From contig DIWJ01000042.1 in assembly GCA_002428445.1 (NCBI GenBank), forward strand, positions 1-16,106: a stretch of DNA of 16,106 nt, given 5' to 3'. Of this stretch, positions 494-16,066 are shown in pieces. A model generated the notes under the pieces. It was not told the DNA's origin, searched no databases, and saw only the letters and a list, made by a program, of their open reading frames with translations. Position 1 is the stretch's first letter. Every line of letters starts with the position of its first letter. Both the position numbers and the translations under genes were made by a program. The DNA comes from Syntrophaceae bacterium UBA6109 (lineage in GTDB: Bacteria > Desulfobacterota > Syntrophia > Syntrophales > UBA6109).

Positions 494-556
494 GAAGGTC
501 AAGAGAGACTGCCGATCATGTAAATGGAATTCTTTTTAGGTACGGGAGTAACGCCG

Positions 557-1294: not shown

Positions 1295-1412
1295 ACGGGC
1301 TTTTCTCAAGTCTCGGAGAGTTCAACGGGGGTTTTCACCGGCTGCGGATGTCTTCGATGAAGCAAGGAGTGGGCAGAAAATGAACCATGTCTATCTAAGG
1401 GAGGGAATGAAA

Positions 1413-2420: not shown

Positions 2421-2436
2421 AATGTGATCACCGATC

Positions 2437-2488
2437 CGGCTGGAACGGCAAGAAAGGTTGCCCCGCACTGCCCTTGCCGTTCCGGCCG
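2437..2488 (+). promoter_or_regulatory. Long stem-loop between binding-protein and permease genes
   Basis: Bases 2437-2452 pair with 2473-2488 over 16 bp with a single G-U wobble (2441/2484), closing a 20-nt loop. No run of T follows, so it is not a typical intrinsic terminator. It lies in the 122-nt gap after the solute-binding protein stop and about 55 nt before the permease start. Such hairpins between a periplasmic binding protein and its membrane partner commonly stabilise the upstream mRNA or attenuate read-through, giving an excess of binding protein. That role is inferred here. Confidence 0.6.
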
Positions 2489-2542
2489 TCACGTCATACG
2501 CATTTGAAAGGTAACGTCCGTTCCAGGGAAGGGAAAAGAACG

Positions 2543-4444
2543 ATGGAAAAGTCAACGGGATCTGTTGAAGCAACCTCGGCCCTCGAGTCGATCCTTGGCA
2601 AAGTCGGAGTCGTCCTGGCGGTTGTCATGTCGCTCTTTCAGCTCTATACGGCGGCGTTCGGCTCTCTGGAGGGGGTTCTTCAGCGCTCCATTCATTTCGG
2701 TTTTGCCGCATCGATTGTGCTGATCCTGTTTCCGCTGAAGGGGAAGAAATGGCAGATCATCAATTATCTGTTTGTCGTCCTCACCATCTGTTCCTTTGCA
2801 TGGATCTTTGCGGATTACGAGAGGATCAGCACACGTTGGCCGCTGGCGGACGACGTATTCACCCTTGACTACATCTTCGGGACGCTGGCCGTCCTCCTTA
2901 TATTGGAGGCGACCAGAAGGTGCATGGGGTGGTCGCTGCCGCTGATTGCCGGCATTTTTCTCGTCTATGCCTTTGTCGGTCCATACCTGCCGGGACTGCT
3001 GCACCATCGCGGCTATTCCTATACAATGGTGCTGGACGAACTGTACCTGACGACGGAGGGCATCTTCGGCGTGGCGGCGTCCGCCTCGGCAACGTTCGTC
3101 TTTCTCTTTGTCCTTTTCGGCGCATTCCTCGACAAGACCAAAGTCGGCGAATTTTTTCTCACCCTGACGCATTCGATCACGGGAAGCATGAAGGGGGGGC
3201 CCGCCAAGACGGCCGTCGTGGCGAGCGGTCTGATGGGCATGGTCTCGGGCAGCGGGATCGGCAACGTCGCGACAACGGGAGTCTTCACCATCCCCTTGAT
3301 GAAGCGAATGGGCTATCAGCCGCACATCGCCGGCGCCATTGAGGCAGCGGCTTCGAGCGGCGGGCAGATTATGCCGCCCATCATGGGTGCCTCGGCGTTC
3401 ATCATGGCGGAATTCACGGGCGTGCCCTATATCGAAATCATCAAAATCGCTCTTATTCCGGCGATTCTGTACTACGTGCTGCTCATTTTCCAGGTCCACT
3501 TCCGAGCCTACCGGCGAAACATCCCGGCGATACCGAGAAGCGAACTGCCGTCCGTCATGGGAATCCTGAAAAGCGGCTGGTATCTGTCGATCCCCCTTTT
3601 TGTTCTCGTGGTGTTGCTCGTCATGCAGTACACGCCGCTGTATGCAGGCGTGAATGCGATTGTCGCGATCGTGATCGTCAGCATGTTCCGCAAGGACACC
3701 CGGCTGAACCTGAGAAAACTGCTCGGCGCACTTGAAGCGGGCGCCAAGAGCGCGGCGCCGATCGCCATGGCCTGCGCATGCGCGGGAATCGTCGTCGGGG
3801 TAATTACCCTGACCGGGCTGGGAATGAAATTTTCTTCCTTGATCGTTTCTTTTGCCGGCGGAAGTCTGTTCCTGGGAATTATCCTGGTCGCGATAACAGC
3901 CATGTTCCTCGGCATGGGCCTTCCCGTTGTTGCGGCCTATGTGGTTCTGGCCGTTCTGGCGGCGCCTGCTCTTACGGAATTGGGGGCGACCATCATCGCC
4001 GCGCATCTTGCCGTCATGTGGTTCACCCAGACGTCCAATATCACGCCGCCTGTCTGCCTGGCCGCATTCACCGCCGCCGCAATTGCCAAGGCGGAGCCGA
4101 TGAAGACCGGATGGAGCGCAATCCGCTACGGCCTCGGATTTTTCTTCATCCCGTTTCTTTTCTTTTACAGCCCGATTCTGCTGAACGGGAAGGTCTTCGA
4201 CATCGTTCTGACCATTGCAACGGCGTTCTTCGGGATCATCGCGATATCCGCAAGTTTTGAAGGATACCTCGTCAGGAGGCTGATGACGGCGGAACGTGTC
4301 ATTATCGCCATCAGCGGTATCCTTCTCGTATGGCCGCATCACATCGTCAGTGTTGTTGGACTCGTCATCGTGGCAGGTGCTGTCCTGTTTCAGATCAAGA
4401 CGCGGGAAAAATACGCAGGCGATCTGCGAGAGGGAACCATGTAG
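2543..4444 (+). CDS. TRAP transporter fused permease (4TM/12TM, DctQM-type)
   Basis: A 633-residue integral membrane protein in which the small (DctQ-like) and large (DctM-like) TRAP subunits are fused, as is usual for TAXI systems. Hydrophobic segments run through nearly the whole length. The family-specific core sits around residues 225-300: GLMGMVSGSG, TTGVFTIPLMKRMGY, AAASSGGQIMPPIMGASAF and a following EFTGVPY segment. A second conserved stretch, LGMGLPVVAAY, is near residue 455, and TQTSNITPPVCL lies beyond it. It drives ion-coupled uptake of the ligand delivered by the TAXI protein encoded just upstream. The start ATG 2543 is preceded by AGGGAAGGG. Length and order are normal for the family. 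The frame is open upstream to 2348, but that part overlaps the preceding gene and has no family content. Confidence 0.95.
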   Translation: MEKSTGSVEATSALESILGKVGVVLAVVMSLFQLYTAAFGSLEGVLQRSIHFGFAASIVLILFPLKGKKWQIINYLFVVLTICSFAWIFADYERISTRWPLADDVFTLDYIFGTLAVLLILEATRRCMGWSLPLIAGIFLVYAFVGPYLPGLLHHRGYSYTMVLDELYLTTEGIFGVAASASATFVFLFVLFGAFLDKTKVGEFFLTLTHSITGSMKGGPAKTAVVASGLMGMVSGSGIGNVATTGVFTIPLMKRMGYQPHIAGAIEAAASSGGQIMPPIMGASAFIMAEFTGVPYIEIIKIALIPAILYYVLLIFQVHFRAYRRNIPAIPRSELPSVMGILKSGWYLSIPLFVLVVLLVMQYTPLYAGVNAIVAIVIVSMFRKDTRLNLRKLLGALEAGAKSAAPIAMACACAGIVVGVITLTGLGMKFSSLIVSFAGGSLFLGIILVAITAMFLGMGLPVVAAYVVLAVLAAPALTELGATIIAAHLAVMWFTQTSNITPPVCLAAFTAAAIAKAEPMKTGWSAIRYGLGFFFIPFLFFYSPILLNGKVFDIVLTIATAFFGIIAISASFEGYLVRRLMTAERVIIAISGILLVWPHHIVSVVGLVIVAGAVLFQIKTREKYAGDLREGTM

Positions 4445-4497
4445 ATCGGGCCGGAGGCAAGGGACTTATCAATCGTGCAGTAAAAGGAGAAAAGAAG

Positions 4498-5403
4498 ATG
4501 GAAGAAAGAATCGGATTCATCGGACTCGGGGCCATGGGACTTCCCATGTCGAAGAATGTGATCCGCAAGGGGTATGCGGTCACCGCATACGACATTGCCA
4601 AGCCCAGGCTGGATGAGCTTGTCGCGTTCGGCGCAAAGGCGGCGGCTTCCGCGAAGGAGGTTGCCGAGCAGTCGGACATCGTCATCACCATGGTGCCTTC
4701 TTCTCCTCATGCGAGGGAGGCCATCCTGGGAGAAAAGGGCGTCATCAAAGGCATCGCCAAGGGGGCCGTCGTCATCGACATGAGCACCATCGATCCCGTG
4801 ACGACGCGGGAGATTTCCGCGGCGCTGTCGGCAAAGGGCGTGAAGATGCTGGATGCCCCGGTCGTCAGAGGCGTGCGGGGCGCGACGGAGGGGACCCTGG
4901 CGATTTACGTCGGCGGAGAGCCGGAGGTCTTCGAGAAGTGCAAGGCCCTGCTGTCGGCTATGGGAACGGACATCGAATATTGCGGCGGGACGGGGGCGGG
5001 CGAGATCGTGAAACTCATCAACAATCTGCTGATCGCCGTAACCATGTGCTCCCTGGCGGAGGGGATGGTCCTGGGCGTGAAAGCCGGTGTCGATCCTGCC
5101 GTGTTGTTCAAGACGCTGAGCAAGGGCTCCGCGAACAGTTTCGTGCTGCAGAACCACGTGAAGAATTTCGTCATGAAGGGGAATTTTGCCGAAGGGGTGT
5201 TCCCCGTTGATTACATCATGAAAGACCTGAATCTGGCCATGGTCACGGCGGACAAGTACCATATTCCGCAGTATTTCGGCTCCCTCGCCTACCAGGCCTA
5301 TGAAGCTGCGAGGGCGGCCGGTTACAGCAAGCAGTACTACCCGGCGGTCATCCAGGTCGTGGAAAAACTGGCCGGCGTCGAAGTGCGCGGCAAGACGGAG
5401 TGA
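4498..5403 (+). CDS. NAD(P)-dependent beta-hydroxyacid dehydrogenase, 3-hydroxyisobutyrate dehydrogenase family
   Basis: A 301-residue enzyme of the 3-hydroxyisobutyrate/6-phosphogluconate dehydrogenase superfamily. It has the N-terminal Rossmann motif IGFIGLGAMGLPM (GxGxxG at 9-14), the dinucleotide-domain stretch ITMVPSSP, and the catalytic Lys at 172 with N175/N176 in GAGEIVKLINNLL. The substrate-recognition loop usually reads DAPVSGG; here it is DAPVVRG (119-125), so the Ser-Gly pair is Val-Arg. That change suggests a substrate other than 3-hydroxyisobutyrate or tartronate semialdehyde, perhaps with an extra carboxylate for the Arg to bind (inference). The enzyme should interconvert a beta-hydroxyacid and its semialdehyde in the cytoplasm. 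ATG 4498 has a strong site, AAGGAGA (4484-4490), 7 nt upstream. It follows the permease after 53 nt, probably on the same transcript. Confidence 0.92.
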   Translation: MEERIGFIGLGAMGLPMSKNVIRKGYAVTAYDIAKPRLDELVAFGAKAAASAKEVAEQSDIVITMVPSSPHAREAILGEKGVIKGIAKGAVVIDMSTIDPVTTREISAALSAKGVKMLDAPVVRGVRGATEGTLAIYVGGEPEVFEKCKALLSAMGTDIEYCGGTGAGEIVKLINNLLIAVTMCSLAEGMVLGVKAGVDPAVLFKTLSKGSANSFVLQNHVKNFVMKGNFAEGVFPVDYIMKDLNLAMVTADKYHIPQYFGSLAYQAYEAARAAGYSKQYYPAVIQVVEKLAGVEVRGKTE

Positions 5404-5563
5404 CGATCGAGGAACGAGCGCCGATCAAAACGCACGTATCAACCTCGTTTCCGGATTTGCGAAGGGGACGGAACACCCGATATTCTGTCGAGGGTCCGCC
5501 AACGAAAGGTAAAAGATGATCGCGGTTTGGAGAACCAATACAATCTAAAGGGTGGTTGTGCGC

Positions 5564-7498
5564 ATGGATAAAATCGAGAAGCTGTTGGAGTCCCTTAAGG
5601 TCGGATCACGTACATTGCGCAACAGGATGGTTCTCTCGCCGATGCTTACCTGTTCGGCCAACGATGATGGCAGTGTCAGCGATGATACGGTCCGATACTA
5701 CACGGAACGGGCCGAAGGCGGAGTCGGGGCGATCATCACCGAGTATTTTTATATCGATGAAAAGGCCAGCAAGGCCAGGGGGCGGCAACTGGCCAATACG
5801 GGCGGCCGCTATCTTCCGGGCATGAAAAGACTGGCTTCGAGCGTAAAAGGGCTTGGCTGCGCAATCATCATGCAGCTATGCCACGCCGGAAGGCAGACAT
5901 CGGAAAAATGGATCGGCAGGCAACCGGTGGCGCCATCGCCCGTTCCGAATATGGGAACGCTTCCCCGCGAGTTGACCATAAATGAAATCATAGAGATTGA
6001 GGAAGCTTTTCGGGCGGCAGCCGAAAGGGCCGCGACGGCGGGATTTGACGGCGTGGAAGTCCACGGGGCCCATGGATACCTGCTGAATACCTTTGCATCG
6101 GAGGCCACGAACAAGCGGACCGACGCCTACGGCGGCTCCTGGGACAATATGATGAGATGTTCCATCGAAACGGTGGCAAAGGTCAGGGCAACCCTGGGAC
6201 GCGATAAAATTCTCGGATATCGGATCAATGGATCGGATTTCATACCCGGCGGCATTACGGAAGATCAATTGAGAATATTCGCGAAGCGACTGGAAGAGAG
6301 CGGTGTGGACTACCTTCATGTAAGTGCCGGCATGCAGGAATCGATGCATTATCTGATCCAGCCCCTGTATATTCCCGAGGCGGTCCTCGTTCCGTTTGCC
6401 GCCGTCGTCAAAGAGGCGGTGAAGATACCTGTTATCTCCGTCGGTTCCCATACGCCCGAAACAGCCGAGAGGACATTGAAGGAAGGGAAGGCCGATCTTA
6501 TCGCCTTCGGCCGGGCCCTCATCGCCGATCCCGAACTCCCGCGCAAAATCCGAGAGGGCAGGCAAGCGGACATCAGGCCCTGTCTCCGCTGCAACGGCGG
6601 CTGCGTGGGGCACTCCAGCAGGAATGAGATGATCCTCTGTGAAATCAACCCTGTGATCGGAAGATGGGACTGGGATTATTTTACGAAGGCGCCGAACGGA
6701 AAGAAAAAAATTGCCGTCATCGGCGGCGGGATCGCGGGACTGGAGTCGGCGAGGCTGGCCGCACTCAGGGGACACGAAGTCCACGTCTATGAAAAGACCG
6801 GATTGCTCGGCGGTCACCTGGTGGAAGGCATCGTTCCCGGCTTCAAGGAAGGGCTGGGAAGATATTTGCGGTGGCAGAAAAAACAACTCGGCGACCTGCA
6901 TGTCGCCATCCATCTGAATGCCGGAATGACCCCCGAAAAGGCAAAAGAGATGGATGCCGATGTCGTTGTGGTTGCCGTCGGCTCGGAGTTCATCCCGCCT
7001 CCCTTCCCCGTCGATTCAACGGATGTGATGATGGCTGATGCGGCCCTGCTGTATCCGCATACGGTCCGGGAGCCCATGGCGATTATCGGCGGCGGGATCG
7101 TGGGATGCGAAACGGCGCTCTACTTCGCCGGAGAGCTCGGCAGGAAAGTCATCCTCATCGAAGCTCTGGACGATATCCTGTCGGCGGAAAGCAATCCCAT
7201 CAACCGGAAGGCCATGATCAAGGGGCTCATCGATTCCGGCGCTGCCATTCACAGGGGAACCAAAGTTACCGGCATCCGTTCCGGCAAGATTTCCTGTCTG
7301 GACAGGCGCAACAAGGTCGTGGAATTTGAACCGGCGTCGGTCATCATCGCCCTCGGTCTCAGGCCAAAAGAAGATTCCGTCGACGAGTACAAAGATGCCG
7401 CCCCCGTCGTTGTTCGCGCGGGAGATTGCAGCAGCGTGCGAAACATCGCGGGGGCAATCGAAGATGCCTTCCAGATTGCCAACAAGTATTTTATTTGA
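5564..7498 (+). CDS. Old-yellow-enzyme-type Fe-S flavoprotein, 2,4-dienoyl-CoA/2-enoate reductase family
   Basis: A 644-residue protein with the full architecture of FadH-like and 2-enoate reductases. An FMN-binding TIM barrel (about 1-335) carries VEVHGAHGYLLN (H167, H170, Y172) and TNKRTDAYGGS. A [4Fe-4S] site follows with cysteines 340, 343, 347 and 359 (C-x2-C-x3-C-x11-C). The C-terminal FAD/NAD(P)H half has VIGGGIAGLE (about 385-394) and a second GGGIVG near 509-514. It reduces an activated C=C bond, or runs in reverse, using NAD(P)H. Whether the substrate is a CoA thioester or a free enoate cannot be read from the sequence. ATG 5564 is chosen because AAAGGGTGG (5547-5555) lies 8 nt upstream; in-frame GTG codons at 5552 and 5558 are less well placed. 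The 160-nt gap before it shows no clear promoter. Confidence 0.93.
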   Translation: MDKIEKLLESLKVGSRTLRNRMVLSPMLTCSANDDGSVSDDTVRYYTERAEGGVGAIITEYFYIDEKASKARGRQLANTGGRYLPGMKRLASSVKGLGCAIIMQLCHAGRQTSEKWIGRQPVAPSPVPNMGTLPRELTINEIIEIEEAFRAAAERAATAGFDGVEVHGAHGYLLNTFASEATNKRTDAYGGSWDNMMRCSIETVAKVRATLGRDKILGYRINGSDFIPGGITEDQLRIFAKRLEESGVDYLHVSAGMQESMHYLIQPLYIPEAVLVPFAAVVKEAVKIPVISVGSHTPETAERTLKEGKADLIAFGRALIADPELPRKIREGRQADIRPCLRCNGGCVGHSSRNEMILCEINPVIGRWDWDYFTKAPNGKKKIAVIGGGIAGLESARLAALRGHEVHVYEKTGLLGGHLVEGIVPGFKEGLGRYLRWQKKQLGDLHVAIHLNAGMTPEKAKEMDADVVVVAVGSEFIPPPFPVDSTDVMMADAALLYPHTVREPMAIIGGGIVGCETALYFAGELGRKVILIEALDDILSAESNPINRKAMIKGLIDSGAAIHRGTKVTGIRSGKISCLDRRNKVVEFEPASVIIALGLRPKEDSVDEYKDAAPVVVRAGDCSSVRNIAGAIEDAFQIANKYFI

Positions 7499-7512
7499 CC
7501 TGCCGAGTCGCC

Positions 7513-7537
7513 CGCTCCCTTGGTGAAAAAGGGAGCG
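7513..7537 (+). terminator. Possible terminator hairpin after the reductase gene
   Basis: A 9-bp perfect stem (7513-7521 with 7529-7537) and a 7-nt loop start 15 nt after the reductase stop codon. The position fits the end of the left transcription unit, and a separate promoter follows about 80 nt later. The stem is not followed by a T tract, so Rho-independent termination is doubtful. It may instead protect the 3' end of the mRNA. Confidence 0.4.
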
Positions 7538-7613
7538 CAGCGATTCATGGAAAATGGCCGGGACCTTCCGGACCAGTTTCGTTAAAAAAAGTCAGTTGAA
7601 CTTCAATTTTTTC

Positions 7614-7641
7614 TTGACTTCCAGGAAGGGGCGTGTACAAT
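7614..7641 (+). promoter_or_regulatory. Sigma70-type promoter for the second GntR gene
   Basis: TTGACT (7614-7619) and TACAAT (7636-7641) are separated by 16 bp, each one mismatch from the consensus boxes. Upstream is an A/T-rich stretch (7582-7615) that could act as an UP-like element. Transcription would begin near 7648, giving a leader of about 40 nt before the GTG start. This is the best promoter visible in the window and the likely entry point for the right-hand gene block. Confidence 0.7.
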
Positions 7642-7657
7642 ACGCGATCGAATATGA

Positions 7658-7676
7658 TTTCAGATATCATCTGAAA
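7658..7676 (+). promoter_or_regulatory. 19-bp palindrome, probable GntR operator
   Basis: TTTCAGAT and ATCTGAAA form perfect 8-nt arms around a 3-nt centre. The palindrome begins 16 nt after the -10 box, within the expected 5' leader, and its right end overlaps the ribosome-binding sequence AAAGGA (7674-7679) of the regulator gene. Length and symmetry suit a dimeric FadR-subfamily regulator, so autoregulation is likely. I did not find a second copy upstream of the flavoprotein gene. Confidence 0.55.
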
Positions 7677-7686
7677 GGATTGTTCT

Positions 7687-8379
7687 GTGCAATCCCATTC
7701 GTCCGAAGCAAACAGCAACAGCGCGAAAAGTCAGCCCCCCCTTCCTCTCAGAACCATCATCTATGAACAGTTGGTGAACGATATCATGCGGGGCCGCATC
7801 AACGCCGGAGAACGCTTGTCGGAAGCGGCTCTGGTGGAAAGGTTCGGCGTCAGCAAGACGCCCATCCGGGAAGCCCTGATTCAAATGGAGCGGGAAGGCT
7901 ACATCCTCTTGAGAAAGAATATCGGGGCTGTAGTCCAAAAGGTCTCCACAAAGATGGTGGAAGAGATATTCACCATTGTCGCCGTGCTGGAGTCGTATGC
8001 CACGGAGGTTGTCGTTGCCGAAGGGAAATTCACCAAGCGCGATATCGTTCACCTTGCGAAATTGATTTCCGAGATGAAGAAGCGGGCACAGCGGAGACAA
8101 TATCTTGAGTACCGGTCGTTGAATGCCGAGTTTCACGACTATTTTGTCGGAAAACTGGGAAACGAGACATTGAGACTGAAGGTCGTTGATCTCCGCAAAC
8201 GCATGTACGGCATCGTGTCGGGCGGGTTGACCCTGCCGATGCATATCGATCGGTACGTGGAATGCCACCGGCAGATTTTGGATGCCGTCAAGAATAGCGA
8301 CGCGACGAAAGCGGCCAGGCTTATGCGGGATCATCTTATGGAGTCAAAGAATTTCATGGTTGCCGCCCTGGGACAATGA
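7687..8379 (+). CDS. GntR/FadR-family transcriptional regulator with FCD domain
   Basis: A 230-residue regulator. The winged helix-turn-helix covers about 21-88, with the GntR signature GERLSEAALVERFGVSKTPIREAL and then MEREGYI. The C-terminal FCD ligand domain (about 92-222) has the expected histidines H150, H194 and H216, which in this family bind a metal that holds a carboxylate effector. The acidic residue that usually sits four positions before the first of these is Asn146, so metal binding may be altered. The start is GTG at 7687, supported by AAAGGA 7 nt upstream. A strong promoter and a 19-bp palindrome precede it. It heads the dehydrogenase/hydratase/lyase block in the same direction, so it probably senses the pathway substrate or an intermediate (inference). 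Confidence 0.92.
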   Translation: MQSHSSEANSNSAKSQPPLPLRTIIYEQLVNDIMRGRINAGERLSEAALVERFGVSKTPIREALIQMEREGYILLRKNIGAVVQKVSTKMVEEIFTIVAVLESYATEVVVAEGKFTKRDIVHLAKLISEMKKRAQRRQYLEYRSLNAEFHDYFVGKLGNETLRLKVVDLRKRMYGIVSGGLTLPMHIDRYVECHRQILDAVKNSDATKAARLMRDHLMESKNFMVAALGQ

Positions 8380-8490: not shown

Positions 8491-10146
8491 ATGTCATATC
8501 CTGCGGGCATGAGGCCTTCAGTTGAAAAGGTTGAGCAACGAAGAAAAGATCGCCTGAACAATTATGAGTTTCCGAGGTTGACTCCGGAGGACAAGGCATC
8601 GTTGCTCAAGAGCCACCATCCCGACTTTCGCGAGGGGGACAAGGTCCTTCTCCGGTGCGGGGCGAATAAGGGAGAGCGCGTTCCGAAAGTGATGGCGGCG
8701 GTCATGGAGTCTCCGAGCCGTTTGAACTTGGACGCGGTCGACCTGAGCAAGCCGGACTATAGGACCGATGTGCTGGTCATCGGAGGGGGCGGCGGCGGGG
8801 TCACGGCCGCTTTGACGGCCCATGACAACGGTGCGAAGGTCATCCTTGCCACGAAATTGAGACTGGGCGATTCAAATACCATCATGGCCGAAGGGGGGAT
8901 TGCCGCCGCTTCTCTTCCGGAAGATTCGCCGGCGATTCATTACATCGATACGATGGTGGGAGGGCGGTTCAAGAACATCCCGGAGGTGGTTGAGGCGCTG
9001 GTGAATGAGGCGCCGTCCATTTTAGAGTGGCTTACAAACCTGGGAGTGAACTTCGACAGAAAGGCCGACGGAAGCTACTTCAACCACATGCCGGCAGGCC
9101 ATGCTTTCAAGAGATCTCATTCGATCAAGGATCTCACAGGGCTGGAGTTGATGCGCGTTCTCGGCGACGAGATCCGCAACAAAGACATTGAAGTGCTGGA
9201 ATTCTGCCCTGCAGTAGAACTGCTTCTGGATGAAAACGGCGAGTGTGCCGGCGCAATTCTCGAGGATCTCGACACGGGCAGGAATATTGTCGTAGAGGCG
9301 GGTTCGGTCATTATGGCGACAGGCGGGATGGGGCGCCTCCATCCGAACGGTTTTCCCACTTCGAATCACTACGGCGCCACCGCCGACGGGATTATCATGG
9401 CGTCCCGGGCCGGCGCGAAGCTGCTGTACCTGGAATATATTCAATACCATCCGACGGGCGTTGCCTGGCCGGAACAGATATTGGGTCTGCTTCTTTCCGA
9501 AGCGATCAGGGCCGAGGGAGCCCACGTGGTCAATTGCGACGGTGAGCCCTTCGTCAATCGTCTGGAGACAAGGGATGCGCTCTCCGCCGCCATTCTCCGT
9601 GAATGCGGACCGAAGGGAAAAGGTGTTGAGACGCCGACGGGGACGATGGGCGTATGGCTGGACACGCCGATGATCGATATGAAGCCAGACGGTAAAGGTA
9701 CGTTTCTGCGCAGGTTTGCCGGGATTCATCATCGGTACAAGAAATATGACATTGACCCCATACAGGAGCCGCTGTTGATCTATCCCACGCAGCATTACCA
9801 GAATGGCGGCGTTGCGATCAATGTGTATGGCCAGTCCAATGTCCCGTACCTCTATATGGCGGGTGAAGTCGCCGGAGGCATCCACGGTCATAACCGGTTG
9901 GGGGCGAATTCTCTGGTTGATATTTTTGTTTTTGGGCGTCGGTCAGGGAAGCATGCGGCGGAAAACTATCGGAAGAAGCCTGTCACGAGATTGTCTCTCG
10001 ATCATGTGAAGGCCCACCACAAGGAATTGGCGGCACTCGGGATCTCCACGACGTTGAGATCGCCGATGCTTTTGCCGGATTATCGATTCGAAAAGGCGCT
10101 GACCAGCACAAACTATGTCACTGACATCGTCGAGGCGGAGAAATGA
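8491..10146 (+). CDS. Fumarate reductase/succinate dehydrogenase-type flavoprotein subunit
   Basis: A 551-residue flavoprotein. FAD motifs are VLVIGGGGGG (94-103) and YMAGEVAGG (455-463). By comparison with remembered E. coli FrdA, every active-site residue has a counterpart: H320 in YHPTG, S336/E337, the proton-shuttle Arg as R361 in ETRDALS, H435 in QHYQNGG and R469 in HNRLGANSL. It therefore acts on a dicarboxylate C=C/C-C bond. The His that covalently binds FAD in SdhA/FrdA (S-H-T) is Asn129 (S-N-T), so FAD should be non-covalent. The N-terminus is extended by about 90 residues, and the C-terminal helical domain is short, with only about 60 residues after R491-equivalent helix AAENYR. AGGAGGAG lies 7 nt before ATG 8491. 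Its last codon overlaps the Fe-S subunit start. Substituted succinates or fumarates are possible substrates. Confidence 0.9.
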   Translation: MSYPAGMRPSVEKVEQRRKDRLNNYEFPRLTPEDKASLLKSHHPDFREGDKVLLRCGANKGERVPKVMAAVMESPSRLNLDAVDLSKPDYRTDVLVIGGGGGGVTAALTAHDNGAKVILATKLRLGDSNTIMAEGGIAAASLPEDSPAIHYIDTMVGGRFKNIPEVVEALVNEAPSILEWLTNLGVNFDRKADGSYFNHMPAGHAFKRSHSIKDLTGLELMRVLGDEIRNKDIEVLEFCPAVELLLDENGECAGAILEDLDTGRNIVVEAGSVIMATGGMGRLHPNGFPTSNHYGATADGIIMASRAGAKLLYLEYIQYHPTGVAWPEQILGLLLSEAIRAEGAHVVNCDGEPFVNRLETRDALSAAILRECGPKGKGVETPTGTMGVWLDTPMIDMKPDGKGTFLRRFAGIHHRYKKYDIDPIQEPLLIYPTQHYQNGGVAINVYGQSNVPYLYMAGEVAGGIHGHNRLGANSLVDIFVFGRRSGKHAAENYRKKPVTRLSLDHVKAHHKELAALGISTTLRSPMLLPDYRFEKALTSTNYVTDIVEAEK

Positions 10147-10841
10147 ATAAGAAAAACCTGAATATGATTTCGATTTATGTGATGGGGAAGAGATTCTCGG
10201 TGCCGGAGGACTTGACGATACTCAAGGCGCTTGAATTTTCCGGGTTCCAGGTTACGCGAGGCTGCGGCTGCCGGGGCGGTGTCTGCGGAGCCTGCGCGAC
10301 CGTGTACCGAAGAAAGGGCGATTACCGCATTGTTACGGGCTTGGCATGCCAGACGGTCATAGAACCGGAAATGAGTCTTGTCACGCTCCCGTACATTTCT
10401 TCGAATAGACCGCCCTATAAAGTCCGCGAGATGGATCCCGACAGTCTGGATATCGTGAAGACCTATCCGGAACTCATGCGCTGCATGGGCTGTAACACCT
10501 GCACAAAATCCTGTCCCGTGAATCTTCAAGTCATGAACTACATTTCCGCGGCCATTCGCGGCGACCTGAAGCAGGTGGTCGACTTGTCCATCGAATGCGT
10601 CATGTGTGGATTGTGTGCGGCGCGGTGCCCGGCGGAAATATCGCCCTACAACGTAGCCCTCTTGGTTCGCAGGTTGTACGGCGTACATAAGTTGCAGAGA
10701 TCTCCCCAATTGGAGAAAAGAGTGGCAGACATCGCGGCGGGAGTTTACAGCGCGGAGATCGCGGAGCTGAAGAAAAGCGACAACAAGAAACTTCAGGAAA
10801 AGTTCAATGAACTTCAGGCAAAGAAGGGTGCTTCGGTATGA
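10143..10841 (+). CDS. Fe-S subunit of the fumarate reductase-type complex (SdhB/FrdB-like)
   Basis: A 232-residue electron-transfer subunit. The N-terminal half is a [2Fe-2S] ferredoxin domain with C43, C48, C51 and C69. The C-terminal half has two ferredoxin motifs, C114-x2-C117-x2-C120-x3-C124-P and C152-x2-C155-x2-C158-x3-C162-P. In E. coli FrdB the second motif has Val at one Cys position and holds a [3Fe-4S] cluster. Here that position is Cys155, so two [4Fe-4S] clusters are predicted. The tail (about 200-232) is charged and probably helical. There is no C-terminal CCG domain of the kind found in thiol:fumarate reductase TfrB. The gene starts within the flavoprotein stop codon (ATGA, 10143-10146), implying translational coupling and a 1:1 complex that passes electrons to the membrane subunit encoded downstream. 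Confidence 0.93.
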   Translation: MNKKNLNMISIYVMGKRFSVPEDLTILKALEFSGFQVTRGCGCRGGVCGACATVYRRKGDYRIVTGLACQTVIEPEMSLVTLPYISSNRPPYKVREMDPDSLDIVKTYPELMRCMGCNTCTKSCPVNLQVMNYISAAIRGDLKQVVDLSIECVMCGLCAARCPAEISPYNVALLVRRLYGVHKLQRSPQLEKRVADIAAGVYSAEIAELKKSDNKKLQEKFNELQAKKGASV

Positions 10842-11389
10842 AAGATAAGAATGCGAGCAACAGGAAGGAAGAGGGCAAGACCATTCAACTCGATACGCCC
10901 ATCTCGGAAGAGGCCATCCGGGCTCTTCGCGTCGGCGATTTTGTCGAGATCAACGGGACCATTTTATGCGGTCGGGATGCGGTCTTGCCAAAGATGGTCA
11001 AGATGGCTGAGTCGGGAAACGACAAGGCAATTCTATCCCTGCTGAAGGGGGCGGTCATTTTCCATACCGCCGTCAGCATCGCCGGGATCGGTCCGACAAC
11101 CAGCGGCAAGCTGGAGATCGAGGGCAGCATCCCCGCCCTGTCCCAGGCGGGGGTAAAGGTTCATCTGGGGAAGGGCGCCCTGACCGCTGAGACCATGGCC
11201 GCCTTGAAAAAGCACAATTCCGTGTTCGCCGTTACGCCTCCCACTTCGGCCTATTTCTCGGCAAAGATGATTTCGCAAAAAGTGGCCATGTTTCCCGAAG
11301 AGGGCATGGAGGCGCTTTATGAAGTGAAGGTCAAAGGGTTCCCGGCGATCATCGCCATTGCAAACGGGGAGTCGATTTTCTCAAAATAA
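10838..11389 (+). CDS. Class I fumarase-type hydratase, beta (C-terminal) subunit
   Basis: A 183-residue subunit of the Fumarase_C/TtdB family. Visible family features are the early TPISEEAIRALRVGDFVEINGTI segment, GIGPTTSGKLE (typically GPTTxxRM), the LGKGAL strand-turn and the C-terminal block MEALYEVKVKGFPAIIAI. Several positions that are nearly constant in fumarases differ. The ARDxAHKR stretch is GRDAVLPKM, the Arg of the GPTT motif is Lys, and the GGAAAL loop is PPTSAYFS. With the alpha subunit it should add or remove water across a C=C bond in a di- or hydroxy-dicarboxylate. The divergence suggests a substrate other than fumarate, such as mesaconate (inference). It begins inside the preceding stop codon (ATGA, 10838-10841). 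Confidence 0.85.
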   Translation: MKDKNASNRKEEGKTIQLDTPISEEAIRALRVGDFVEINGTILCGRDAVLPKMVKMAESGNDKAILSLLKGAVIFHTAVSIAGIGPTTSGKLEIEGSIPALSQAGVKVHLGKGALTAETMAALKKHNSVFAVTPPTSAYFSAKMISQKVAMFPEEGMEALYEVKVKGFPAIIAIANGESIFSK

Positions 11390-11408
11390 CTGGCAGATAG
11401 AGGATGAT

Positions 11409-12290
11409 ATGCTCACGATAGAAAAAATACGAGAAGGCGTCGGGAAGTGCCTGGTGAAATCCGGTACGACTTACAGGGCTGACCAGTTTGAAGCCTACAA
11501 AGCGGCCATTGAAAAAGAGACGAACAAGAATGCCAGGTGGGTTCTTGAGCGGCTGGTCGAAAATGCCGGGATTGCGGAAAAAAGCAAATTCCCATTGTGC
11601 GACGACACGGGGATTCCCCATCTCTTCCTTGAAGTGGGGGACGATATCGATCTGCCGAAGGGCTGGCTTGTGGCCATCCAGGAGGGAGTCAAGCAGGGCC
11701 TGCGGGACATGCCCGGACGGCCCATGGCGATCAAGGGCAACGATGTCCAACGGGTCGAGCAGTCCGGGGGACTTTCCGAGGATCCGTCGGATGTTCTGCC
11801 GCCCTCGGCGATCACGAAAGCGGTCCCCGGGAACCGCTTGTCCGTGACGGTCCTGCTCTTCGGCGGGGGACCGGAAATCCGCGCGAAGACTTACCGCATC
11901 TATCACAAGCGAAGCATGAACAGGGTCGTGGAAGAGGCGGCCAGCTGGGCAGCGGGTGAAATAGGCGGTCTGGGCTGCACTCCCGGCACCATTGCCATGG
12001 GCATCGGCCGATCGCACACTGAAGCGACCATGCGGATGGTCGAGGCGATGCGAAACGGCGATTTGAGAAAACAGAGCGAGTGGGAACGGAAAGTCACCGA
12101 GATCGTCAACGCCACGAAAGTGGGGCCGTTGGGCATGGGGGGCGACTACTCCGTCCTCGGGACGTTTCTCAATGTCGGGCCTGCCCGAGCCAGCGGCGTG
12201 CGAATCGTGTGTATGAGGCCCTGCTGCTGCGTGGAACCGAGACGGGCCACGGTTTCTTTCGATGCCGCGGGGACGGTGACGTTGGAATAA
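11409..12290 (+). CDS. Class I fumarase-type hydratase, alpha ([4Fe-4S]) subunit
   Basis: A 293-residue alpha subunit of the Fumerase/TtdA family. Likely cluster cysteines are in PLCDDTGIP near residue 59, GLGCTPGTIAMGIG near 190, and the RPCCCVEPRRATV block near 276-280. The LGMGGDYSVLG region is also retained. Two substrate-side motifs are unlike classic fumarases: the usual NTGDNTPA region reads SEDPSDVLPPSA, and GGGSEN reads GGGPEI followed by RAKTYRIYHKRS. The fold and cluster chemistry should be conserved, while specificity is open; mesaconate, fumarate or a related hydroxyacid are candidates. ATG 11409 has GAGG 6 nt upstream. The frame is open to 11358, but that part overlaps the beta subunit. 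Beta precedes alpha in this operon, with a 19-nt gap. Confidence 0.87.
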   Translation: MLTIEKIREGVGKCLVKSGTTYRADQFEAYKAAIEKETNKNARWVLERLVENAGIAEKSKFPLCDDTGIPHLFLEVGDDIDLPKGWLVAIQEGVKQGLRDMPGRPMAIKGNDVQRVEQSGGLSEDPSDVLPPSAITKAVPGNRLSVTVLLFGGGPEIRAKTYRIYHKRSMNRVVEEAASWAAGEIGGLGCTPGTIAMGIGRSHTEATMRMVEAMRNGDLRKQSEWERKVTEIVNATKVGPLGMGGDYSVLGTFLNVGPARASGVRIVCMRPCCCVEPRRATVSFDAAGTVTLE

Positions 12291-12329
12291 CCTTTCTTCT
12301 GTAATGATAAGGAAATATGGAGTTCCGTT

Positions 12330-13256
12330 ATGGGCAATGATTCAAAATTACATGCGCTTCACACGCAGCATCTCCTGGACGAAGCCTGGAGTCCGGTCGC
12401 ACGGTTTCGGCTTCTTTCGCGGGGCATCAATGAAAATACCCGCCTCCTGGACACTTCCCAGGTTGTCGGCGACAGCGCCTGCCTTGCCTGCGGGAACTGC
12501 ATAGACAATTGTCCCGTCGTCAAGACCAATGTCGGGCTGGTTTTCGACCAGAATCAGAGAACATCGATGAATCTGGAAAATGTCGTGCAGGAAGAGTGCC
12601 GCCGCTGCTACCGCTGCGTCTTGTCCTGCCCGCAGGTGAGCAAGAACCTGAAGGAATATGCCGCCGGTTTCAGAAGGGTGGAAAAGATCGTCCATCTCCT
12701 GGCGGCTTTTGCCATTGTTTCCCTTGCGGCGACGGGCGTAAGCCACTCCCACTATGCCGATGTCCTGAACCCTCTGGAGGCGGATTTTCTGAAATATGCC
12801 CACAGGACGATCGGCGCGCTCGCCATCTTGATTCCCATTCTCTATTACAAGCTGGATATCGGTCATTTTCGGATGACCGTAAAGAAAATTTTCACATGGG
12901 GGCATGCCGACGTTGAGTGGCTGAAAAACACCTGGTCCCATATCTTCAGGCCGAGCAGCCAGAAACCGCTGGCGCGGAACCAGTTCAATCCGGGGCAGAA
13001 GATCTGGTATCTCTTCATCATGTCGTTTTTCCCCATTCTCTATCTGTCGGGGTGGACCGCCATCATCATGAGTGGCGGAAAGGAAAGCGCCAGCCTCGTC
13101 GATGTGAAGGTATTCCACATGGCGTTTGCCCTTCCTTTCGACATCATGCTTTTCATCCATATTTACATCAAGTACATCCGGGAGTGGATCAAAGACGGCT
13201 TTAAAATATTCAAGAACTACAAAGAGACAAAATCCTTTGTATTTACCAGAAATTAG
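12330..13256 (+). CDS. 2x[4Fe-4S] / cytochrome b561-like membrane fusion protein (probable complex anchor)
   Basis: A 308-residue protein in two parts. The N-terminal part has two ferredoxin motifs, C51/C54/C57/C61-P and C90/C93/C96/C100-P. The C-terminal part has four hydrophobic segments (about 118-138, 158-174, 225-247, 262-284) with histidines H122, H158, H263 and H277. Their spacing (R-x-x-x-x-x-H, AHRTIG, FHMAF..., FIHIYIKY) matches the di-heme cytochrome b of formate dehydrogenase gamma subunits rather than the SdhC/FrdC type. It probably takes electrons from, or gives them to, the Fe-S subunit encoded two genes upstream and exchanges them with quinone. Partnership is inferred from operon position, since no other anchor is present. 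GGAG (12319-12322) lies 7 nt before the ATG. Confidence 0.85.
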   Translation: MGNDSKLHALHTQHLLDEAWSPVARFRLLSRGINENTRLLDTSQVVGDSACLACGNCIDNCPVVKTNVGLVFDQNQRTSMNLENVVQEECRRCYRCVLSCPQVSKNLKEYAAGFRRVEKIVHLLAAFAIVSLAATGVSHSHYADVLNPLEADFLKYAHRTIGALAILIPILYYKLDIGHFRMTVKKIFTWGHADVEWLKNTWSHIFRPSSQKPLARNQFNPGQKIWYLFIMSFFPILYLSGWTAIIMSGGKESASLVDVKVFHMAFALPFDIMLFIHIYIKYIREWIKDGFKIFKNYKETKSFVFTRN

Positions 13257-13296
13257 TCTTGCGACCCCATTACTTTATCAGAAGTGAGGATGACCT

Positions 13297-14514
13297 ATGG
13301 CGATGAAACAGGCATTTGCGGGGAACAAAGGTCCGAAAGTCAAGAACGACTGCCACATCACTTTGGAACTGGGGAAAACCGGCGGCCTCAAGATTCAGAT
13401 CGACAGCAAGGTCGGCGTTTATTATGGCGGGAGCATCGAGAAATTGTGCAAAGACGTTCTCCGCCACTTCGGCATCAAGAATGCCACCTTGGTCATTGAA
13501 GATGCGGGGGCCTACGATTTTGTCATCGCCGCCCGTATCGAGGCCTGTGTCCGCCAGCTGAAAAAGATTGATAAACCCTATCTTCCGAAGTTCCTACCTG
13601 AAAACCATTATGCATCGAGCGCGGACAGGATGCGTTTCTCCAGGCTGTACATACCCGGCAACAGCCCCGGAATGATGCTCAATGCGGGCATCTACGGAGC
13701 GCATGGAATCATCCTGGACCTTGAAGATGCTGTGGCACCGCCGAAGAAGGACGAGGCGCGCTTGCTGGTCCGGAACGCGTTGCGCCAGGTCAATTTCTAC
13801 GGGGCGGAGCGGATGGTCCGAATCAATCAGCTGCCCAGGGGCCTCGATGACCTGGAGGAGATCATCCCTCACAATGTCCATGTGGTGCTCCTGCCCAAGT
13901 GCGAGTCCAGGGAACAGATCCAGGAGGTCAACAAGAAGATTGCATCGATTCAGAAGCGAAATAAGTTAAAGGGCGAGATTTATCTTATGCCCATCATCGA
14001 AAGCGCCCTCGGTGTAATCCGCGCCTATGAAATTGCATCCGCCGCGGACAATGTGGTCGCAGTCGCCATCGGTCTTGAAGACTATTCCGCCGATCTCGGC
14101 GTTCAGAGGACCAAGGAGGGATTTGAGTCGCAACATGCAAGGAACTGTCAGGTCACTGCCTGCAGGGCGGCCGGAGTCCAGGCGATTGATTCGGTCTTCT
14201 CCGACTTCCAGGATGAGGAAGGCTTGCGGAAAACAGTCCTCAGAGCGAAGTCCCTCGGTTTTGAGGGAATCGGCTGTATCCATCCCAACCAGATCAAGCC
14301 GATTCATGAAAGCTTTGCTCCCCAGGAAGAGGAAATCGCAAAAGCCAAAGCCATTGTTCGCGTATTTGAAAAAGCGAAGGAAAGCGGCCTTGGGGTTGTC
14401 GCCCTGGGTTCAAAAATGATTGATGCACCCGTTGTAAAGCGCGCGGTTCTGTCGATTGATCGAGCCATCGCATTGGGGAAAATTTCTAAAGATTGGAGAA
14501 CGCAAGATGAATAA
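13297..14514 (+). CDS. citE: Fused citrate lyase-type acyl-carrier (CitD) and beta (CitE) protein
   Basis: A 405-residue fusion. Residues 1-88 match CitD without gaps from D18 on, with IDS at 35-37 and IEDAGAYDFVIAARIEA at 67-83. A linker of about 20 residues leads to a CitE TIM barrel (about 110-397) with LYIPGNSPG, DLEDAV (141-146), MVRIN (R175), PIIESALG (E235), GLEDYS (E261/D262) and GFEGIGCIHP. CitE cleaves citryl- or citramalyl-thioesters to an acetyl thioester and a keto acid, using Mg2+. The Ser that carries the phosphoribosyl-dephospho-CoA arm in CitD (Ser14 in Klebsiella) aligns with Lys16, and there is no Ser before residue 37. The carrier role is therefore probably lost. GTGAGGA lies 6 nt before the ATG. 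The fusion preserves the D-E-F gene order of citrate lyase operons. Confidence 0.92.
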   Translation: MAMKQAFAGNKGPKVKNDCHITLELGKTGGLKIQIDSKVGVYYGGSIEKLCKDVLRHFGIKNATLVIEDAGAYDFVIAARIEACVRQLKKIDKPYLPKFLPENHYASSADRMRFSRLYIPGNSPGMMLNAGIYGAHGIILDLEDAVAPPKKDEARLLVRNALRQVNFYGAERMVRINQLPRGLDDLEEIIPHNVHVVLLPKCESREQIQEVNKKIASIQKRNKLKGEIYLMPIIESALGVIRAYEIASAADNVVAVAIGLEDYSADLGVQRTKEGFESQHARNCQVTACRAAGVQAIDSVFSDFQDEEGLRKTVLRAKSLGFEGIGCIHPNQIKPIHESFAPQEEEIAKAKAIVRVFEKAKESGLGVVALGSKMIDAPVVKRAVLSIDRAIALGKISKDWRTQDE

Positions 14515-16066
14515 AGACAAGCTGGTTAAGAATGCTATCGGCCGCCTTGTGCCAACCGTCATCAACAACATGCCGGCTGTGCCTTATAAAGGCGTTGGAA
14601 AACATCGCCCGACAGGGCGGATATACGGCCCTCCGATCTCAACCTGCGCAGATTATCCCGCTGACGGCAATAAATTGGTCCCATCGCTCAAAGAGGCCCT
14701 GCTCAAGGCCGGCTTGAGAGACGGAGTGACGATCTCCACGCATCACCATTTTCGCGACGGTGACCTCCTCGCCAACCAGATCTTCGATATCGCAGCCGAA
14801 CTCGGGATGAAGAATCTCATCTGGGCGTGCTCGGCATCCTTCCCCTGCCACAAACCCATTATCAAACACCTTGAGAGCGGCGTCATTCACCATATTGAAG
14901 GAAGCATGAACGGCGCTCTTGGACGTTTCTGCTCCCAGGGGAAAATGGCCGGCATGGGGGTTCTGCGATCGCACGGAGGACGGTACCAGGCCATTCAGGA
15001 TGGAGAGCTGCATATCGATATCGCGGTGATTGCCGCCCCGACGGCCGATGCCTTCGGCAATGCAAACGGCGTCAACGGCAAGGCAGCCTGCGGTTTGATC
15101 AATTTCGCCCTCGCGGATTCGGAATATGCCGATAAAGTCATTGTCGTTACGGATAACCTTGTCCCGTTCCCCTGTATCCCCTGGCAGATTCAGGGCAACA
15201 ATGTCGATTATACCGTTGTCGTTGACCAGATCGGGATTCCGGAAAAGATTATCTCCGGAACCACTCAGATTACCCGCAGCCCCGACAGGCTTTTGATCGC
15301 CGAAATGACGGCCAGGTTCTGCGAAGAGGCGGGCATCATCCGCGACGGATTTTCGTTTCAGGCAGGCGCCGGCGGGACGGCGCTGTCTATCGGGATCTAC
15401 TTCGCGGAAATACTGAAAAAGAAGGGCATGAAGAGCGGTTTTGCCCGCGGCGGCAGCAACAAGTACCTGGTCCAGATGCTGGAAGAGGGTCTCACGGGCA
15501 ACATCCTTGACGGACAGACCTTTGACCTCGAAGGTGTAAGGTCCATGCGGGACAATGCAAAACACGTCGCTACCAGCCCCTTTACGAGCTACAACTACCA
15601 CGGCAAGGGCAATATTGCTTCCATGCTGGATGCGGTCATCCTCGGCGCCACGGAAGTTGACTTGAATTTCAACGGAAACGTCGTGACGCATTCGGATGGC
15701 TATCTCCTGCACGGCATCGGCGGATGGCAAAACTGCCTCTTCGCGAAGTGCACGATCCTGCCTATTCCGTTGTTCCGGGGAAGGGTTCCCATCATCCGGG
15801 ACGAGGTAACGACCATCTGCGGGCCCGGCGAATTGATTGACGTGATCGTCACGGAAAGAGGGATTGCCGTGAATCCGCTGAGGCAGGATTTGTTGGATGC
15901 TGTAAAGCATTCGTCCCTGCCAATCAAGAGCATCGAAGAACTCAAGGAAGAATCCGAACGCATCTGCGGAAAGCCGGCGCAACCGACTCTCGGTGATAAA
16001 GTGGTCGCTGCCGTGAAGTGGGTTGATGGAACGGTTATCGATTCCATTCGAGAAGTTCGGAAATGA
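14507..16066 (+). CDS. citF: Citrate lyase-type alpha subunit (acyl-CoA/ACP transferase)
   Basis: A 519-residue CitF homologue, close to the family length and similar throughout to remembered E. coli CitF. Matching stretches include VTISTHHHFRDGDL (about 76-89), SHGGRYQAIQDGELHIDIA, DAFGNANGVNGKAACG, FSFQAGAGGTALSI (about 284-297), GRVPIIRDEVTTIC and DVIVTERGIAVNP. CitF swaps the acetyl group on the thioester carrier for the incoming hydroxy-diacid, releasing acetate. It supplies the citryl- or citramalyl-thioester that CitE cleaves. ATG 14507 overlaps the citDE stop by 8 nt, and GGAG (14495-14498) lies 8 nt upstream, so the two are translationally coupled. No citC, citX or citG appears in the 40 nt left after it or elsewhere in the window. 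Confidence 0.95.
   Translation: MNKDKLVKNAIGRLVPTVINNMPAVPYKGVGKHRPTGRIYGPPISTCADYPADGNKLVPSLKEALLKAGLRDGVTISTHHHFRDGDLLANQIFDIAAELGMKNLIWACSASFPCHKPIIKHLESGVIHHIEGSMNGALGRFCSQGKMAGMGVLRSHGGRYQAIQDGELHIDIAVIAAPTADAFGNANGVNGKAACGLINFALADSEYADKVIVVTDNLVPFPCIPWQIQGNNVDYTVVVDQIGIPEKIISGTTQITRSPDRLLIAEMTARFCEEAGIIRDGFSFQAGAGGTALSIGIYFAEILKKKGMKSGFARGGSNKYLVQMLEEGLTGNILDGQTFDLEGVRSMRDNAKHVATSPFTSYNYHGKGNIASMLDAVILGATEVDLNFNGNVVTHSDGYLLHGIGGWQNCLFAKCTILPIPLFRGRVPIIRDEVTTICGPGELIDVIVTERGIAVNPLRQDLLDAVKHSSLPIKSIEELKEESERICGKPAQPTLGDKVVAAVKWVDGTVIDSIREVRK

Follow-up and report, generated by a model that had tools for sequence, protein, structure and literature searches.

A rare seven-gene operon joining a complex-II-like unit, a fumarase-type hydratase and a fused citrate-lyase-type enzyme: a candidate anaerobic route for 2-substituted succinates

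Which acid is handled by an operon that sets genes of a fumarate-reductase type, a fumarase type and a citrate-lyase type in a single row? The question is raised by the window analysed here, a stretch of 16,106 nucleotides from Syntrophaceae bacterium UBA6109 (contig DIWJ01000042.1), in which seven genes of these kinds lie head to tail at 8491–16066 on the forward strand, neighbours overlapping or standing at most 40 bases apart. A sequence-only reading of this DNA had proposed a route between methylsuccinate, mesaconate and citramalate, ending in pyruvate and acetate. Here, on the basis of gene content, synteny, retained and lost residues and a search for cofactor genes, we tentatively propose, with a confidence that falls somewhat short of even, that the operon encodes three successive anaerobic reactions on a 2-substituted succinate, with methylsuccinate and citramalate as the preferred substrates.

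Writing R for the 2-substituent, the complex-II-like membrane unit would oxidize 2-R-succinate to 2-R-fumarate and deliver the electrons to the quinone pool, although it could also run in reverse as a reductase. The hydratase, a divergent member of the class-I-fumarase type, would add water to give 2-R-malate, which the CitD–CitE fusion and CitF would cleave to acetate and R-CO-COOH. For this last step, CitF would transfer coenzyme A (CoA) from acetyl-CoA onto the hydroxy acid and CitE would cleave the resulting CoA ester, restoring acetyl-CoA. With the preferred R of CH3, the route would read methylsuccinate to mesaconate to citramalate to pyruvate and acetate. We infer the order of the reactions, their direction and the free-CoA mechanism.

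Gene content, order and distribution

Protein identities come from Pfam and NCBIfam profile scans of 13 window proteins. The seven genes, and the regulator gene before them, are as follows.

8491..10146, + strand: FrdA/SdhA/NadB-type flavoprotein (FrdA; PF00890, 238 bits)
10143..10841, + strand: FrdB-like iron–sulfur subunit, overlapping FrdA by 4 bases
10838..11389, + strand: hydratase beta subunit, class-I-fumarase type (PF05683, 95.7 bits)
11409..12290, + strand: hydratase alpha subunit, class-I-fumarase type (PF05681, 170.6 bits)
12330..13256, + strand: membrane subunit with 4Fe-4S and cytochrome b561-type domain (Cytb; Ni_hydr_CYTB, PF01292)
13297..14514, + strand: CitD–CitE fusion (CitDE), an acyl-carrier-like domain (PF06857, 58 bits) with an HpcH/HpaI lyase (PF03328, 182 bits)
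14507..16066, + strand: CitF, acyl transferase (alpha) subunit (TIGR01584), overlapping CitDE by 8 bases
7687..8379, + strand: GntR/FCD-type regulator, directly upstream of FrdA

All seven frames have an ATG start, a stop codon and no internal stop; the ATG of the hydratase alpha subunit was picked within a listed TTG frame by alignment to the Geobacter locus L001, and that of CitF was picked manually. Genes overlap by 4, 4 and 8 bases and the remaining gaps measure 19–40 bases, the beta-subunit gene preceding the alpha-subunit gene in the hydratase pair. Judged from its position, the GntR/FCD-type protein is the likely regulator of the operon. The sequence-only reading had placed the three enzyme types in one operon, which the profile matches and the seven collinear genes bear out; it had also remarked on the lack of a malate dehydrogenase, and none is found among the genes of the window, which stops 40 bases past citF.

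A genome search for the seven-gene neighbourhood, which that reading had called for, recovered the same order in Geobacter argillaceus (L001) and in a Deltaproteobacteria metagenome-assembled genome (MAG; L002, from the taxonomic order of L001) at 69–82% identity per gene by tblastn, from which the gene positions at both loci are taken. In locus L115 (genome G604, same class) the seven genes are collinear at 63–80% identity per gene. The synteny thus spans four loci, the window included, and because the order is repeated in L001, L002 and L115 it is not a product of chance. The genome-contig scan, run with CitDE, gave 199 confirmed matches, of which the top 80, L001 and L002 among them, were analysed. 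At the level of the class, fused CitDE was found in 8 of 277 genomes, G604 being one of the eight; scans with Cytb matched 2 genomes among 141 from the order and 1 among 395 sampled across the phylum, and gave no match on plasmids. The seven-gene unit is rare.

Among the 120 FrdA protein clusters listed, 39 form a group at ≥75% identity and the remainder lie at ≤69%; for the Cytb relatives a comparable step separates 56% (426 bits) from 53% (323 bits). On contigs of ≥8 kb, at least 22 of 29 FrdA clusters at ≥75% identity (the window's own cluster counted) lie on a contig of exactly the same length as that of a listed Cytb or CitDE cluster, at least 16 of them with CitDE, a co-occurrence that we treat as indirect evidence of synteny. 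For the 39 FrdA clusters below 75% on contigs of that length, at least one was matched with a listed Cytb and at least one with a listed CitDE; these listed co-occurrences do not establish the operon across the FrdA family at large. Clade members with a named source come, among others, from Syntrophales, Nitrospirota, Desulfuromonadaceae and Desulfocicer niacini, the last of which is a nicotinate degrader; a nicotinate route was considered and may be possible. Two more TfrA/NadB-like flavoproteins (L115:358–1941 and 17536–19179) flank the operon in G604.

The fused lyase and its carrier loop

CitF passes the citrate lyase alpha model (TIGR01584, 506.7 bits; cut-off 501.45), CitE stays under the citrate lyase equivalog cut-off (TIGR01588, 267.9 bits versus 443.4) and CitD is also under its cut-off (TIGR01608, 56.4 bits versus 63.5). 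The identity of CitF is 38–42% to four citrate lyases and 44% to a citramalate-type lyase. The sequence-only reading had described a lyase built from three subunit types: the CitD, CitE and CitF types are present, with CitD and CitE fused, which it did not mention. The kinship to citramalate lyase that it drew is upheld by annotated citDEF genes beside glutamate-mutase genes and by the clostridial clusters of putative mesaconase and citramalate lyase described in PMC4682846.

The enzyme shares its CitD-, CitE- and CitF-type domains with the acyl-carrier-protein-dependent citrate lyase (CitDEF with CitC, CitG and CitX), from which it differs by the CitD–CitE fusion, an eroded carrier serine and a lack of CitG and CitX matches in the genomes tested. 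In citrate lyase, a phosphoribosyl-dephospho-CoA group made by CitG and CitX is normally carried on CitD Ser14 and acetylated by CitC. The carrier loop of the window reads Lys16-Asn17-Asp18 against Ser14-Gly15-Asp16 of E. coli CitD. In a tree of 80 fused proteins, which covers 20 of the 80 loci, includes the carrier-loop columns and has bootstrap values that are not fully settled, the operon group forms one side of a branch with 100/100 support and comprises 49 rows. A serine-free loop occurs in 26 of these 49 sequences, the window included, and the serine state requires ten changes on the tree, at least seven of the changes being forced by well-supported branches; P0279, which lacks the loop, is left out of the loop count. 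A point mutation or sequencing error at Asn17 was considered and rejected, Asn being present in 15 of the 49 clade sequences (again with the window).

In the reference citDEF clusters inspected, citC and citX adjoin citDEF in several and citC and citG in another. CitC, CitG, CitX and methylaspartate ammonia-lyase (MAAL) were sought first in 30 genomes picked for spread from the 80 loci, and CitG and CitX were without a match in all 36 fused-lyase genomes tested (30 plus 6), three of which carry the operon, with a positive E. coli control. Given the eroded serine and the lack of CitG and CitX matches, the operon lyase probably works on free CoA esters, without a covalently bound cofactor; on the simplest reading of the eroded loop, the carrier domain has become a structural one. 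Isolated subunits of citrate and citramalate lyases act on free CoA esters as a side activity.

Three points weigh against a cofactor-free lyase. The chief caution is the [R/K]-S-D loop retained by 91 of 91 fused CitDE sequences outside the operon clade, whose serine is adjacent to the expected position and could be modified. The 36 genomes come without completeness figures and include many MAGs, G. argillaceus being an isolate. Finally, CitC (PF08218) exceeds its cut-off in 5 of the 30 genomes, covering 62–99 of 182 positions each, with none in the operon-bearing genomes G001 and G002; because the coverage is partial and PF08218 also matched 7 of 14 control genomes, we read these matches as nucleotidyltransferase relatives.

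The retained serine would suit a fused lyase that bears a prosthetic group attached by enzymes outside the CitC, CitG and CitX models, for which a conserved protein of about 185 residues, found in 18 of 80 loci and after citF in L115, would be one candidate. We regard this as doubtful, if still a serious contender: the loop is serine-free in more than half of the operon clade, the window among them, CitG and CitX have no match in any genome tested, and the small-protein cluster has no member in L001 or L002. The small protein, HD-like by eye, matches no Pfam or NCBIfam family above the cut-offs applied.

The surroundings of the fused lyase are varied. At L115:3635–7891 (− strand), and also at L022, L028 and L031, the small protein stands beside the lyase together with two different fused proteins of the isopropylmalate isomerase (IPMI)/homoaconitase (HACN) type, one of which has GSSRQ and not GSSRE. 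Three Anaerolineales loci (L048, L059 and L063) have CitDE–CitF with HacA/LeuC-, LeuD- and homoisocitrate dehydrogenase (HICDH)-type genes and a PrpD/MmgE-family protein, named by profile scan for L048 and by clustering for the other two; these clusters are possibly a separate pathway around the same lyase. Genes resembling methylmalonyl-CoA epimerase or carboxyltransferase, named by eye, lie within five open reading frames (ORFs) of fused CitDE in 21 of 77 loci (for example, L025, L047 and L061). A 4-aminobutyrate-transaminase-type gene lies immediately 5′ of fused CitDE at L116:7351–8715 and L117:4162–5511, in two genomes of the same class; that of L116 was profile-scanned, and both stretches end inside citF and contain no further genes of the operon.

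The oxidoreductase and the hydratase

FrdA carries an N-terminal extension of about 90 residues. His320, Glu337, Arg361, His435 and Arg469, which correspond to catalytic positions of complex II and flavocytochrome c3, are kept in 26 of 26 relatives aligned (a selection from the 120 listed), and the column of the covalent-FAD histidine is Asn129, likewise Asn in all 26. FrdB has one 2Fe-2S motif and two 4Fe-4S motifs (CxxCxxCxxxCP), with no FrdB-type 3Fe-4S motif found by inspection. The membrane subunit has two 4Fe-4S motifs, and 8 Cys and 7 His are invariant in the seven sequences aligned. Electrons would pass from FAD through the 2Fe-2S and 4Fe-4S clusters to heme b and on to quinone. FrdA, FrdB and the membrane protein would together work like complex II (Sdh/Frd) yet fail several of its membership features: the FrdA family with its catalytic His, Glu, Arg, His and Arg and a FrdB-like ferredoxin subunit are common to both, whereas the operon unit is without the covalent-FAD histidine, has two 4Fe-4S motifs in place of 3Fe-4S plus 4Fe-4S and, instead of the SdhC/SdhD or FrdC/FrdD anchors, uses the 4Fe-4S/cytochrome b561 protein.

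FrdA relatives at 45–53% identity occur in Ilyobacter polytropus, Cupriavidus metallidurans, Paraburkholderia and Pseudoroseomonas. The Ilyobacter gene is clustered with genes for aspartase, Hdr-type proteins and TAXI-TRAP; downstream of the Cupriavidus relative come a NuoF-like gene and one for a dicarboxylate symporter; that of Paraburkholderia lies near a divergent anion/citrate-type transporter, and that of Pseudoroseomonas has a NuoF-like neighbour. The FrdA proteins of Ilyobacter, Cupriavidus and Pseudoroseomonas can be aligned with that of the operon from residues 3–28 of the N-terminal extension onward, but their partners are of Hdr/flavin type or NuoF-like and not a cytochrome b with a hydratase and a lyase. 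On the Ilyobacter plasmid (L100:2712–11614), a FrdAB-like pair is accompanied by Hdr-type and flavin-type electron-transfer genes, aspartase, an aminotransferase and TAXI-TRAP, an arrangement suggestive of an NADH-linked fumarate-type reductase, perhaps a bifurcating one. A Thr-to-Ser change in the FrdA pocket was tried as a marker for methyl and dropped: all 26 relatives aligned have it, but so do those of Cupriavidus and Pseudoroseomonas, the Paraburkholderia row being left out of this comparison.

The hydratase has the PF05681 and PF05683 domains without reaching any NCBIfam subfamily cut-off, and its alpha subunit is 25–29% identical to plasmid fumarases (12 of 52 records listed). The alpha subunit reads PLCDDTG against CQDTG, with CDDTG in four of four operons, and the beta subunit reads GPTTxxK against GPTTxxR and IFHTAV against IFHAGP of E. 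coli TtdB, each again in all four; CQDTG and GPTTxxR lie on the substrate side in Leishmania fumarase structures. The operon hydratase is an extra copy, since G001 and G002 each encode another Fumerase-family protein, which scores 277–281 bits where the operon copy reaches about 175. Being both extra and altered in conserved motifs, it favours a substrate other than fumarate, although the motifs do not name which one.

The substituent R and its rivals

The identity of R is the least certain part of the explanation. Methyl is our leading candidate, at a likelihood that we would place a little under one half. In 53 CitE columns that separate three citrate lyases from one citramalate-type lyase, the window agrees with the citrate lyases at 15 and with the citramalate-type enzyme at 13. 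At the position of Arg198, which four of four citrate lyases have, the window carries Leu and the citramalate-type lyase Met, a comparison made post hoc and leaving out one Fusobacterium CitD row. This column speaks for methyl, as do the clostridial pairing of putative mesaconase and citramalate lyase (PMC4682846), the IPMI/HACN- or isopropylmalate dehydrogenase (IPMDH)/HICDH-type neighbours of fused CitDE at 17 of 77 loci and a reported anaerobic origin of methylsuccinate from itaconate (PMC12290011). Lys/Arg at CitE column 268 was tried as a citrate marker and dropped, as it is present in the citramalate-type lyase and not in Klebsiella CitE.

Several observations count against methyl or leave it unanchored. 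The 15 to 13 column split is indecisive, and Arg198 is also found in two Fusobacterium lyases. The contexts of the FrdA relatives, with aspartase and dicarboxylate or anion transporters, suggest fumarate, succinate and C4-type diacids, so that the FrdA sequence is not readable as methyl-specific. Oxidation of succinate-type diacids with menaquinone is uphill, which leaves the direction of the reaction open. Two IPMI/HACN-type proteins in L115 are superfluous to the simple scheme. Malate dehydrogenase is encoded in G001 and G002, on contigs other than the operon's. No gene for a source of methylsuccinate was seen. The sequence-only reading had asked whether methylaspartate genes co-occur: MAAL_C is under its cut-off in G001 and G002 (21 bits versus 27) and has no match among the scanned window proteins, with glutamate mutase and G604 outside the search. 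MAAL exceeds its cut-off in 3 of the 30 genomes, none of which carries the operon, and glutamate fermentation via methylaspartate was set aside for want of a qualifying MAAL in G001 or G002.

The argument that the hydration product is itself a lyase substrate is sound for methyl, but it fits citrate as well, which the sequence-only reading missed. With R of CH2COOH, the Frd-like unit would interconvert tricarballylate and (trans-)aconitate, the hydratase would yield citrate, and citrate lyase would form oxaloacetate and acetate. The reaction logic is identical, citrate is the default substrate of the CitE and CitF families, and CitF scores over the citrate lyase alpha cut-off. IPMI/HACN- or IPMDH/HICDH-type genes, named by clustering with profile-scanned representatives, lie within five ORFs of fused CitDE in 17 of the 77 loci with a called fused CitDE, and the full operon in L115 continues into two aconitase-superfamily proteins. 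We nevertheless judge this route unlikely. The small domains of the aconitase-superfamily proteins carry IDTD/NTD motifs and their best profiles are of the IPMI/homoaconitase type, none of the NCBIfam matches listed, the top 25 of 51 for FrdA and the full 10 for Cytb, is to a TcuA- or TcuB-type model, and the Leu in place of Arg198 speaks, post hoc, against citrate. Substrates of the IPMI/HACN and IPMDH/HICDH families include citraconate and methylmalate.

Less probable again is ordinary C4 chemistry, in which citrate would be split to oxaloacetate and acetate and a housekeeping malate dehydrogenase would make malate, which the operon's hydratase and Frd-like unit would carry on to fumarate and succinate to dispose of electrons, unless the whole ran the other way. 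The malate dehydrogenases of G001 and G002 keep a C4 or citrate route of this kind possible, and the FrdA relatives beside aspartase and dicarboxylate transporters are in line with it. Those dehydrogenases are nonetheless not on the operon's contigs, none was seen by eye among the ORFs read around the L115 operon, G001 and G002 already have another Fumerase-family gene, the hydratase motif positions deviate from those of fumarases, and no recognized citrate transporter is among the 13 scanned window proteins.

The sequence-only reading had held that malate must be converted before a lyase could use it, overlooking a direct split to glyoxylate and acetate. Such a malate lyase, working from succinate through fumarate and malate by way of malyl-CoA, is very improbable: the solved structures nearest to the CitE domain include malyl-CoA lyases and a 2-hydroxy-3-oxopropionate-reductase-like gene lies upstream in the window, but CitE scores 268 bits to citE against 62 bits to the haloarchaeal malyl-CoA lyase model, and that reductase gene is undetected in L001, L002 and L115. 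The probability that remains after methyl, tricarballylate/citrate, C4 acids and malate falls to other substituents.

Upstream of the operon, a module at 524–7498 (+ strand) holds a lactonase-like metallo-β-lactamase-fold (MBL) protein, a TAXI-TRAP binding protein and fused permease, a 3-hydroxyisobutyrate-dehydrogenase-type reductase and an FMN/FAD enzyme of the Old Yellow Enzyme (OYE) type. Should the latter reduce citraconate or itaconate, it could supply methylsuccinate; a synthetic route in which an enoate reductase turns citraconate into methylsuccinate is cited in PMC12290011. In L001, L002 and L115, tblastn picked up none of the upstream genes (524–8379), and the conserved unit is therefore the seven-gene block.

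Relation to known pathways and meaning

Clostridial clusters had already led to the proposal that a mesaconase of class-I type is paired with a citramalate lyase of CitDEF type (PMC4682846). In the open-licence literature, we found no paper that adds a complex-II-like unit to mesaconase and citramalate lyase, nor one on a citDEF lineage without cofactor genes. The clostridial methylaspartate pathway of glutamate fermentation, as presented in PMC4682846, has mesaconase MesAB and CitDEF (with CitC, CitX, CitG and GntR), and so shares with the operon a two-subunit hydratase beside CitD, CitE and CitF types and a GntR regulator. A Peptoclostridium cluster shows citDEF, citX, citC, GntR, glm and MAL, with no hydratase in the stretch shown. 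Unlike the clostridial clusters, the window is without glutamate mutase or methylaspartate ammonia-lyase and has no CitC, CitG or CitX alongside, and the operon instead has the fused CitD–CitE and the complex-II-like unit.

A second comparison is the methylsuccinate degradation of Pseudomonadota (Ict, Mcd, Ich, Ccl and Msi), which likewise leads from methylsuccinate to pyruvate and an acetyl unit (PMC12290011). That pathway uses CoA esters from the outset and an acyl-CoA dehydrogenase, whereas the operon would oxidize and hydrate the free acid before forming a CoA ester; neither acyl-CoA dehydrogenase nor itaconate CoA-transferase genes are among the 13 scanned window proteins, the scope of this search being the window. 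In the same paper, methylsuccinate is reported as a product of itaconate-reducing gut bacteria, and the marker isomerase of the CoA-ester route is found to 96.2% in Pseudomonadota.

The methylsuccinate, mesaconate and citramalate route of the sequence-only reading is thus coherent and partly supported, with R not fixed as methyl by the near-even CitE columns. The fuller proposal is possible, though we hold it with less assurance than the operon route itself: quinone-linked oxidation of free methylsuccinate, hydration, and splitting by a cofactor-free class of citrate-lyase-type enzymes that acts on free CoA esters, in a lyase group reaching Bacteroidales, Cloacimonadota, Delongbacteria and Anaerolineales. 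If true, the operon would give iron-reducing and other anaerobes, with Geobacter argillaceus as a cultured carrier, an anaerobic counterpart to the CoA-ester route that handles free methylsuccinate. A cofactor-free citrate-lyase family would mean that this multi-subunit enzyme is usable with free CoA esters in vivo, and many genes annotated as citrate lyase would be something else.

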